Shown: piece after piece, positions 29,737 through 35,254 of the stretch | Numbering within the stretch: position 1 is the first letter of the stretch | How the letters are laid out: each line of letters begins with the position of its first letter | Source: Bacteroidota bacterium | Lineage (GTDB): Bacteria > Bacteroidota > Bacteroidia > 2-12-FULL-35-15 | NCBI GenBank assembly: GCA_947479085.1 | Contig: CANJYB010000003.1 | Span: 62,001-126,000 of the forward strand | DNA length: 64,000 bases | Direction of reading: 5' to 3' | The notes under the pieces: model-generated | Told to the model about the DNA's origin: nothing | What the model saw: the letters and a program-made list of their open reading frames with translations, nothing else | The model's database searches: none | Made by a program: the position numbers and the translations under genes

Positions 29737-29998
29737 TACCCCTGTCAGGGTTCTAAACCAAGGGTGTACGAAACCTTGTAAACCCTTGTTATATATCGTC
29801 CCTACGGGACTTTTGAATTATTTTCATTTTCTTTTCTACAGATATTTTGCCTCTAACGGGGCATATATCCATACTTAAATAGTCCTGTAAGGACGAAATA
29901 TCGGTAGAGATAATAAACAAGTCACCTCTAAAAGTCCCGTAGGGACGACATATTAATTGTTTCGTACACCCTTGGTTCTAAACCCTGACAGGGGTAAT
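29737..29998. repeat. Composite nested inverted repeat (about 260 bp)
   Basis: Outer arms at 29737-29774 and 29959-29996 are 38 bp and match except for a 7-bp centre (they share GTTTCGTACACCCTTGG and CCCTGACAGGGGTA). Inner arms at 29795-29814 and 29930-29948 share AAAAGTCCCGTAGGGACGA. A further related palindrome, GTCCTGTAAGGAC, lies at about 29882-29894. The element contains three GTCC...GGAC palindromes. No transposase is present. The outer core AAACCCTGACAGGGGTAAT recurs inside the transglutaminase gene at 35008-35026. Confidence 0.9.
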
Positions 29999-32539: not shown

Positions 32540-32543
32540 TTGT

Positions 32544-32551
32544 TATATTTG
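32544..32551 (+). promoter_or_regulatory. -7 box (TATATTTG) of the transglutaminase operon
   Basis: An exact TAnnTTTG match 18 bp before the ATG at 32570. It supports that start over an ATG-like codon upstream at 32540. Confidence 0.6.
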
Positions 32552-32569
32552 CAATCCATAAATTACAAA

Positions 32570-35254
32570 ATGAAAATAGGAAGAGTACATAGCTGGAAAA
32601 AAGTCCTCGCCCAACTGATACTGTTGGTCGCGCCCACTGTCCTTTTCTTTTTCTATTTACTCTGGGATTTAAACCATTTTTACACCATCCTCGAAAACGG
32701 TTGGGTAATGCAGGGTTGCTACTTTATGGCCGGAATAGTTATCACCACAGTGTTTTACGCCTGGCGCTTTAGGTTCATCACCACGCTTGCCTTGCTCCTC
32801 CTGTTTTATTACGGCATCTATAAATACGTGGCCGGCCTCTCCATTGGCGAGTTCGATGCCTTTTACCTCTCCGTTCAGTTCATCGTTTTCATTTTCCTGT
32901 TCTCCCTCGGTTGGCTCGCAGGCTTTGGTTTCAGCCGGAGCAAATACTTCACCGTGTTTTGGAGCGTGCTGTTGCTGGTTATACAAATAATAGTAGTAAG
33001 TAAAACCACCGATGTAAAGGTAAACGTCCTCATTTCAGCCTTTGCACCTGTGCTGGCTTATGCTTTTTACATCATCTATACAGCAGAGTTAATCCGCAAC
33101 ATGAATGAGGAAGAAACCCGTTTCTCCTGGTTCATCATCAAGCGCATTACCGGTTTCCTGCTGGTTATTTTGGTTATGTTTTTGGTGATATTCAATATAT
33201 TTAAAAATGATTTTAAAGCAATAGAAAAAGAATGGGGCAACGCGCAGGCCAATTACGACAAGGGTGATGGCAAAAGCGAGAACATGAACCAGAAAGACAA
33301 AGATGGAGGAATGGGTAATAAAGACCAGACCAAACTATCCGGTAACCTTAGTAAGGACAAGCAACTGGTGTTTGTGGCCAAGCTCGATAATTATTTTGAC
33401 GATGGCAAAACACCCAACCCTTTGTACTTCACTTCCTGCTATTACACCAAGTTCGACACGCTTACACAAACCTTCGAGCGCGATAGTTTAATGCCTTACA
33501 ATGATTTGTTCGAACCCGACCCATCCCGCATTCCGCTGTACTTCACCAAATGGGATTCCACCGTTATTAAGAACACTTTTGCCACCAAAAACCGCAAAGT
33601 AGTCACAGCCGATATTTACAAAGTGGCCCTTAGTGCCAGTCGCTACATTGCCCCATCCACCGCTTTCTTTTGCCAGCCCATGAGTGTGCCCAAGGAATAC
33701 AAGGAACAATACAAAAGTACCTATCGCGCCAAGATGTGGGTAAGCGAACTGAACAGTGCCTATTTTATTTATAACCCTGCGGGAAATAAAATGCTCGAAC
33801 AGTTCCAGGATGTACGTTTTGCAAAGCTGCGCGAAGTAAAAAAGATAACCGGCCCTGATAAAAAGTTCATGGACTATTACACCTACATGCCGCGAAACGA
33901 TGATTATAAAAAGATAACGCAACTTGCCAAACAGGTAACAGCCAATACTAACACCCCGGTGGATAAAATGATTGCCATCCGCGATTATTTTTTAAGCAAA
34001 GACGAGTTTAAGCAACCGCTCTTCAAGTATTCCGATAATCCGGGCATTCCCGGCATGCCGAGTGCCAATAAATTATGTTATTTTCTTTTCGAAAACAAAA
34101 AAGGATACTGTGCTTATTATGCAGGAGCCACCTTATTCATGCTGCGTTCGTTGGGTATCCCCAGCCGTGTGGCAGCCGGTTATTTAACAGTGGACCGCAG
34201 CAGCAAAAACCCGGGATGGTATTGGTTCTATGCCAACCAGGCACATGCATGGGTGCAGGTTTATTTCCAGGGTTATGGCTGGATCGACTTTGATACCACC
34301 GTTCCCGACATGAATACACACCAGGCCTCTCAACCGGACGGCACACCACCTACCAACATGCCGCAAACCTACCTCGTGGCCGATGGTGAAGTATTGGAAC
34401 TGGATACCTTGAAAAAACAAATCAAAATGACGGTAGAAAAATTGCTCTATCACGACAAAGATTATGTAACCACCAAAGCAAAAGAAATGACCATCGATGT
34501 TTCCATGGCCACCATCACAGCCGATACAGGTGCAGTAAAATTAAGTTCCATCAAAAAGGGAAATCACATCACCGCAGTATCTTATGCCGAGGTGCTAAAG
34601 AACATACTGGCGGATAAAAAGGATAGCCTCGCTTCCATTATAAACAAACTCCCCGTGCCTGTTCCCATCGATGAGTTGAAAGTAATGAGCAAGGAAGAGC
34701 TAAAGAAACTGAAAAAGAAAAATAAGGAACTCCCTACCGAACCTATTGATTGGATAAGGGTCGGCTGGATTTTATTATTAATCATTACGGCCTTGGTTAT
34801 CCTGCTCTTCCTTTCTCCATGGTTGATATGGCAATACTATAACACCAAAGCCAAACAAATGAACAATGCAAAGGCTTACAACAGTTATCGTGCTGCCTTG
34901 TATTACCTCAACCAGATGGGCTATCCGCGGGATGGCAAAGGTCCGCAGGAGTATGCGTATGAAATCGATTTGAAGTTTACTTCCGTTAGCAACCCTGTCA
35001 GGGTTTCAAACCCTGACAGGGGTAATGGTACCAACCTACATCTGATAAGTTTTTCTTCTTTCAGTAATTTGTACCAAAAAACCAAATACGGTTCCATACC
35101 TTTAACAGAAGCAGAACAGAAAATGGTAAACGAATTTTACAAACCATTTATTAAACAGGTAAAAAGCAAAACAAAATTCAAAACCAGGATAAGTAAATTT
35201 TTAAATATTTATAACACTATTCATTATTTCACTCAACCTAAAATCAATAATTAA
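32570..35254 (+). CDS. Membrane transglutaminase-like protein with in-frame palindromic insert
   Basis: The protein has about 894 residues. The N-terminal part has six membrane segments (about residues 10-235). A periplasmic region then leads to a transglutaminase core with Cys 514 (KGYCAYYAG), His 559 (NQAHAWVQVY) and Asp 573 (GWIDFD). After a further membrane segment (about 725-745) the tail resembles DUF4129. This matches the TgpA-type layout that usually pairs with MoxR and a DUF58 protein; MoxR follows directly, DUF58 is absent. Residues 808-820 (NPVRVSNPDRGNG) are encoded by a palindromic element in a loop of the C-terminal domain, in frame. The start at 32570 is chosen from the promoter position. 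Confidence 0.85.
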   Translation: MKIGRVHSWKKVLAQLILLVAPTVLFFFYLLWDLNHFYTILENGWVMQGCYFMAGIVITTVFYAWRFRFITTLALLLLFYYGIYKYVAGLSIGEFDAFYLSVQFIVFIFLFSLGWLAGFGFSRSKYFTVFWSVLLLVIQIIVVSKTTDVKVNVLISAFAPVLAYAFYIIYTAELIRNMNEEETRFSWFIIKRITGFLLVILVMFLVIFNIFKNDFKAIEKEWGNAQANYDKGDGKSENMNQKDKDGGMGNKDQTKLSGNLSKDKQLVFVAKLDNYFDDGKTPNPLYFTSCYYTKFDTLTQTFERDSLMPYNDLFEPDPSRIPLYFTKWDSTVIKNTFATKNRKVVTADIYKVALSASRYIAPSTAFFCQPMSVPKEYKEQYKSTYRAKMWVSELNSAYFIYNPAGNKMLEQFQDVRFAKLREVKKITGPDKKFMDYYTYMPRNDDYKKITQLAKQVTANTNTPVDKMIAIRDYFLSKDEFKQPLFKYSDNPGIPGMPSANKLCYFLFENKKGYCAYYAGATLFMLRSLGIPSRVAAGYLTVDRSSKNPGWYWFYANQAHAWVQVYFQGYGWIDFDTTVPDMNTHQASQPDGTPPTNMPQTYLVADGEVLELDTLKKQIKMTVEKLLYHDKDYVTTKAKEMTIDVSMATITADTGAVKLSSIKKGNHITAVSYAEVLKNILADKKDSLASIINKLPVPVPIDELKVMSKEELKKLKKKNKELPTEPIDWIRVGWILLLIITALVILLFLSPWLIWQYYNTKAKQMNNAKAYNSYRAALYYLNQMGYPRDGKGPQEYAYEIDLKFTSVSNPVRVSNPDRGNGTNLHLISFSSFSNLYQKTKYGSIPLTEAEQKMVNEFYKPFIKQVKSKTKFKTRISKFLNIYNTIHYFTQPKINN
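34991..35026. repeat. Palindromic element inside the transglutaminase gene
   Basis: Perfect 13-bp arms CCCTGTCAGGGTT (34993-35005) and AACCCTGACAGGG (35009-35021) flank the 3-nt loop TCA. The 3' part AAACCCTGACAGGGGTAAT (35008-35026) is identical to 29980-29998. It keeps the reading frame and adds about 12 residues. Confidence 0.9.

Follow-up and report, generated by a model that had tools for sequence, protein, structure and literature searches.

How does a perfect palindrome come to lie in frame inside a protein-coding gene, and what kind of element is it? The question is raised by a gene in the genome of a Bacteroidota bacterium (G000, the source genome), located on a contiguous stretch of 64,000 nucleotides that was analysed as a whole and is referred to as the window. 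The features concerned are the following.

32540..35254, + strand: host gene, a membrane protein with a transglutaminase-like core; first ATG at 32570
34985..35047, + strand: 63-bp insertion of 21 residues, VSNPVRVSNPDRGNGTNLHLI, relative to eight orthologues, delimited by the orthologue alignment
34991..35023, no strand: family A palindrome, very probably a REP; 33 nt in frame, two 15-nt arms around a TCA core

The 904-residue host ORF contains the Transglut_core domain (PF01841, E 4e-21) and remains open across the palindrome (...TSVSNPVRVSNPDRGNGTNL...), as the initial annotation had described. The palindrome, AACCCTGTCAGGGTTTCAAACCCTGACAGGGGT, can pair as a stem of 13 bp with a 3-nt loop or of 14 bp with a 1-nt loop, and its DNA fold reaches -15.5 kcal/mol (z -5.8). 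Its extent was first given as 34991-35026; the palindrome is indeed there, but the unit of the repeat family ends at 35023 and the whole insertion is nearly twice as long. The structure prediction (pTM only 0.53) places the insert in the C-terminal domain, in a loop modelled with low confidence that connects two predicted helices.

Nine orthologues of the transglutaminase gene were found, all within the genus. Eight of them have no counterpart of the 21 residues, while the ninth (G005, L057), the closest by score with 85% identity, carries a decayed insertion of 54 bp at the same place, in which a decayed palindrome is still recognisable. Thus, the alignment establishes a real, inherited insertion that added residues to the protein, as had been proposed. 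The counter-evidence named beforehand, i.e., distant orthologues that have these residues but no palindrome in the DNA, did not appear, since the sole other carrier has a decayed palindrome. Approximately 20-30 bases adjoining the palindrome, outside the repeat unit, were gained along with it. Assuming a single event, the insertion would be older than the split from G005, in whose lineage the palindrome appears to have decayed with the reading frame kept, whereas the copy of the source genome is nearly intact. The position in a loop and the decay in G005 suggest that the 21 residues are tolerated rather than used.

The palindrome belongs to a repeat family, here called family A, of the form ACCCCTGTCAGGGTT-NNN-AACCCTGACAGGGGT. 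Its consensus is TTAC-CCCTGTCAGGG-TTYNRAA-CCCTGACAGGG-GTAA; the core triplet varies, and a flanking C and G extend the first CCC and the last GGG to CCCC and GGGG; the transglutaminase copy deviates at a single outer base (ACCCC to AACCC). With at most one mismatch, the half-site AACCCTGWCAGGG has eight occurrences in the window where 0.01 would be expected, and the exact half-site is present 111 times in the genome against 0 for a reversed control, and the source genome holds about 50-60 copies of the family. For a survey of their placement, 59 copies with at most three mismatches were counted in 0.85 Mb of sequence, made up of the window and 40 further regions chosen for the copies they contain, on the basis of simple mechanical, uncurated ORF calls. 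They divide into 42 between unidirectional, 11 between convergent and three between divergent genes, and three inside ORFs. Although ORFs occupy about 85% of the sampled DNA, 56 of the 59 copies lie outside them, and for most copies a stop codon is no more than 35 nt away. The claim that the palindrome is able to add residues to proteins therefore holds for this gene, but describes a rare outcome (3/59).

The three copies in ORFs are those of the transglutaminase, of an IcmF-like mutase (L090), and of the C-terminus of a glycosyltransferase, the latter two labels being our own reading of the sequences rather than the result of a family search. The glycosyltransferase copy is not a clear internal insertion: G005 has a decayed palindrome just after the stop codon, and thus the frame of the source genome was probably extended into the repeat. 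As a separate observation, four family A palindromes stand in a row at a spacing of about 220 bp at G000:C9:30711-31405 (L089 9712-10406).

No transposition and no clean empty site was seen for the family A copies, and direct repeats in their flanks, as expected of a target duplication, showed a marginal excess in AT-rich flanks only, with no consistent length. An inverted duplication of the flanks, suggested by the G005 transglutaminase, is not general in the source genome, where 293 of 300 permutations scored at least as high. The excess found at loci of named genomes is due mainly to copies in Flavobacterium whose flanking inverted repeats are extended. In Flavobacterium, family A palindromes are found within longer repeats, whose flanking arms vary from copy to copy and remain complementary, e.g., ATTTTA/TAAAAT and GACTA/TAGTC (L112, L121, L125, L129, L138, L146, L147, L160, L172, L186). 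An identical 29-nt core was found at least in Flavobacterium, other Bacteroidota and anammox planctomycetes, the distribution being a lower bound. The planctomycete loci belong to Candidatus Brocadia and Kuenenia (L113, L117, L119, L130, L131, L154, L157, L163, and others); the identity of the core suggests a transfer between phyla.

In three named genomes, paired family A copies approximately 700 bp apart enclose a gene whose product has the motifs NHFH and YIHxNP and is related to the REP-associated tyrosine transposases (RAYTs), HuH/Tyr single-strand DNA nucleases of the IS200/IS605 superfamily. A profile built from such palindrome-bracketed genes identified the following locus in the source genome.

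G000:C20:69763-69791: palindrome
G000:C20 about 69885-70556: RAYT gene
G000:C20:70605-70617: half palindrome copy
G000:C20:70656-70684: palindrome

A genome search with Pfam Y1_Tnp had missed the cognate RAYTs; it gave five matches, none with a family A palindrome nearby. The protein combines an HuH motif, a single catalytic Tyr with NP, and homology to TnpAREP: its only PDB profile match is 4er8, E. coli TnpArep (E 5.8e-8), which is also the best PDB match of its predicted fold (pLDDT 90; E 1.4e-6). Matches to NCBIfam REP_Tyr_transpos reach E 1e-14 to 1e-16, below the curated cut-off of that model, and those to Pfam Y1_Tnp likewise stay below its cut-off. A RAYT bracketed by family A also occurs in G016, in UBA4417 and in a Flavobacterium MAG, and palindromes stand beside the RAYT gene in G004 and G040. 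The linkage extends to other repeat families: a second RAYT of the source genome, at C2, has flanking and internal palindromes of family C (31 copies), and G027 contains family B (45 copies) together with a RAYT flanked by family B.

Family A thus shares with REPs the short palindrome (20-50 nt), the many, mainly intergenic copies, and the linkage to a RAYT gene that has copies of the repeat on its flanks. It differs from canonical REPs in that the 5' GT[AG]G guide at the foot of the hairpin occurs at just one of 118 ends, with TTAC...GTAA standing there instead. The guide is also absent in RAYT subclass 2.6, according to PMC6006769, and hence is not universal in REPs; family A is therefore a REP-like variant rather than a canonical GTAG REP.

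The palindrome is very probably a REP in this sense, i.e., a non-autonomous hairpin repeat copied round the genome by its cognate RAYT. E. coli TnpAREP, which recognises its hairpin on single-stranded DNA, cleaves beside it and transfers the strand (PMC8266576), serves as the model for the mechanism. By analogy, the RAYT would recognise the hairpin on single-stranded DNA, cut beside it and join it elsewhere. Copies landing just past stop codons would be tolerated. The common ancestor of the source species and G005 would have received one copy in a surface loop of its transglutaminase, with the frame preserved, and retained it as 21 extra, presumably neutral, residues, with the DNA palindrome decaying in G005. 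The initial suggestion of a mobile palindrome in Bacteroidota is upheld as far as a repeated family with a RAYT in the same genome is concerned; mobility itself we infer. Several observations weigh against the REP reading: neither transposition nor a clean empty site was seen, the canonical guide is missing, additional bases were gained beside the transglutaminase copy, and palindrome families and RAYTs of the clade do not coincide in every genome.

A second palindrome in the window bears on a different reading of the repeat. Bases 35008-35026 are identical to 29980-29998, as had been noticed, but the latter segment, first taken as a plain repeat end, belongs to one half of a further palindrome, into which another element has inserted.

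29738..29759, no strand: left half of a second family A palindrome, intergenic, ending in GGTTCTAAACC
29760..29973, no strand: MITE-like element of 214 bp, inverted ends AAGGGTGTACGAAAC, lying in the middle of the palindrome
29974..29995, no strand: right half of the same family A palindrome; starts with another copy of GGTTCTAAACC

This 258-bp arrangement with palindrome halves at its ends, of which two more are alike, could be taken for a MITE belonging to a DDE-type insertion sequence whose terminal inverted repeats are ACCCCTGTCAGGGTT. However, the interior 214-bp element, which also contains an inner repeat (GTCCCTACGGGAC), was inserted three times (window 29760-29973; L074 from 18713; L082 851-1064), in all cases into the centre of a family A palindrome with the core directly repeated on both sides. 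The repeated triplets, CTA/CTA, TAG/TAG and CCA/CCA, are each insertion's own; the palindrome centre is thus the target and not the end of the element. Moreover, the transposase gene that the repeat encloses encodes a Y1 RAYT, and we consider a DDE-type MITE very improbable. The 214-bp element is, judged by its insertion sites, a site-specific parasite of a REP.

Beyond the source genome, a search of the phylum detected this RAYT clade in 69 of 395 genomes, and 63 of 89 Bacteroidota RAYT loci show such palindromes, which are very different in sequence and share one 15-3-15 architecture (33 nt, two 15-nt arms about a 3-nt core). Strong palindromes are located upstream at 39, downstream at 44, on both sides at 30, and inside the gene at 29 of the 89 loci, as opposed to one upstream, none downstream and none on both sides at 57 control loci. 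Flanking palindromes are accordingly found at 53/89 RAYT loci vs. 1/57 controls, and the two sides are similar at 26 of the 30 two-sided loci. Each 15-nt arm itself approaches a 6-3-6 palindrome (over 11 distinct arms, 4.45 of 6 pairs vs. 1.60 in shuffles). The distance between RAYTs is correlated with that between palindrome arms (Mantel r 0.46, 0/5000 permutations), which establishes their covariation at the sequence level. RAYTs of the clade are present in 16 of 22 genomes with any of the families A, B and C vs. 4 of 37 without (Fisher 1.8e-6, not an exact probability since the 59 genomes are related); for each family singly, p is about 4e-4 to 5e-4 among the same related genomes. No RAYT of the clade was detected in G010, with about 13 copies, and in G019 (64% complete), with two. 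Some RAYT genomes are devoid of all three families tested and presumably have others.

These data also bear on a reading of the palindromes as immobile, functional cis elements, such as 3' RNA hairpins, terminators or protein-binding sites, with an in-gene copy that arose by chance or was selected. The prevalence of copies soon after stop codons, their scarcity between divergent genes (three cases) and the very strong symmetric conservation would fit such a role. Yet no T-run follows the palindromes, orthologues occur without the inserted copy, RAYT genes are flanked by copies and covary with them, and related genomes use different palindromes. We regard this explanation as unlikely, while a secondary role of family A at 3' ends may exist alongside copying by a RAYT.

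In-frame palindromes are not limited to the transglutaminase. Among 86 distinct RAYTs, 26 carry one between the HuH and Tyr motifs, in the same frame in 24 cases (LxGFxxLxG). The copy inside the RAYT gene keeps a fixed place and frame, and its sequence is often like the local REP family. A linker of the IcmF-like protein contains family A in G000 and G015, a decayed family A copy in G019, family C in G005 and G014, and B-like forms in G018 and G027. The fixed site within RAYTs and the differing families in the IcmF linker might reflect protein loops that tolerate REPs and were hit repeatedly, by new insertions or by gene conversion. Two further observations concern the IcmF gene. In G010 and G016 (L258, L268) the linker contains an unrelated palindromic repeat in frame, GTCATTCTGAACGAAGTGAAGAATCT.../VILNEVKNL...EILRSAQDDK. 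Between G000 and G015, IcmF is 99% identical (L242, L243), compared to 86% for the transglutaminase and 80% for the glycosyltransferase, which suggests a recent exchange of the IcmF locus.

REP and RAYT biology is known mainly from gamma-proteobacteria with GTAG guides. REPs inside genes were already published (PMC3733652), and for RAYT subclass 2.4 (group 4) PMC6006769 describes in-frame REPs within the RAYT gene itself. As described there, that subclass resembles the present clade in genes flanked by their own palindromes, many intergenic copies, in-frame REPs between the HuH and Tyr motifs, occurrence in Bacteroidetes, and the NH[IFV]H motif. Alignment against the motifs given in that source shows where the present RAYTs depart from it: W-Q is not conserved (F at that place), the residues contacting GTAG in E. 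coli are not kept, and YIHxNP replaces YIxNNP. Their palindromes have neither the GT[AG]G guide nor a double foot, and are of the 15-3-15 type with nearly palindromic arms. The motifs NHFH, F(Q) and YIHLNP and the protein length are closest to subclass 2.1 (group 1, TIRYT), which, however, is reported without REP-like sequences and with a C-terminal HTH, whereas REPs are abundant here and no HTH domain was matched. Subclass 2.6 (group 5) likewise occurs in Bacteroidetes, lacks the GTAG guide and has atypical structures; these are described as weak, in contrast to the strong, near-perfect palindromes found here. By sequence features, then, in-gene REPs point to subclass 2.4 and the motifs to 2.1, and the missing guide resembles 2.6.

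The initial annotation had compared the palindrome to the Rickettsia palindromic elements (RPEs). Rather than an analogue of these with no known source, it is attributed to a RAYT whose gene has flanking copies in the same genome. Like the intragenic GTAG/CGTC REPs and RPEs (PMC3733652), it is an in-frame palindrome decorating unrelated proteins, but it belongs to a different sequence class and a different phylum. Membership in the RPEs, with which it shares palindromy, the kept frame and the added residues, is very improbable: the size (33 nt) and the RAYT association differ, CGTC-tagged repeats including RPE-4 and RPE-6 being reported without transposase association (PMC3733652). The likeness to RPEs is functional only. 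A literature search with the exact sequence of the palindrome returned nothing relevant. As far as the literature searched, an incomplete selection, shows, the pairing of RAYTs without W-Q and strong 33-mers that are double-palindromic and guide-less makes this a new clade.

With its strong 33-mer REPs, which lack a guide, come in many sequences and are each paired with a RAYT, the clade offers a natural set for decoding how RAYTs recognise hairpins. The in-frame insertions in the transglutaminase and IcmF genes illustrate how small, presumably mobile hairpins become protein segments and then decay. Tentatively, the palindrome in this RAYT clade may even have become a coevolving protein-coding module, a possibility we would not favour at present. 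If it were true, REPs would overwrite one another inside genes, and the internal copy could make the gene or messenger of a RAYT a target of that RAYT itself.
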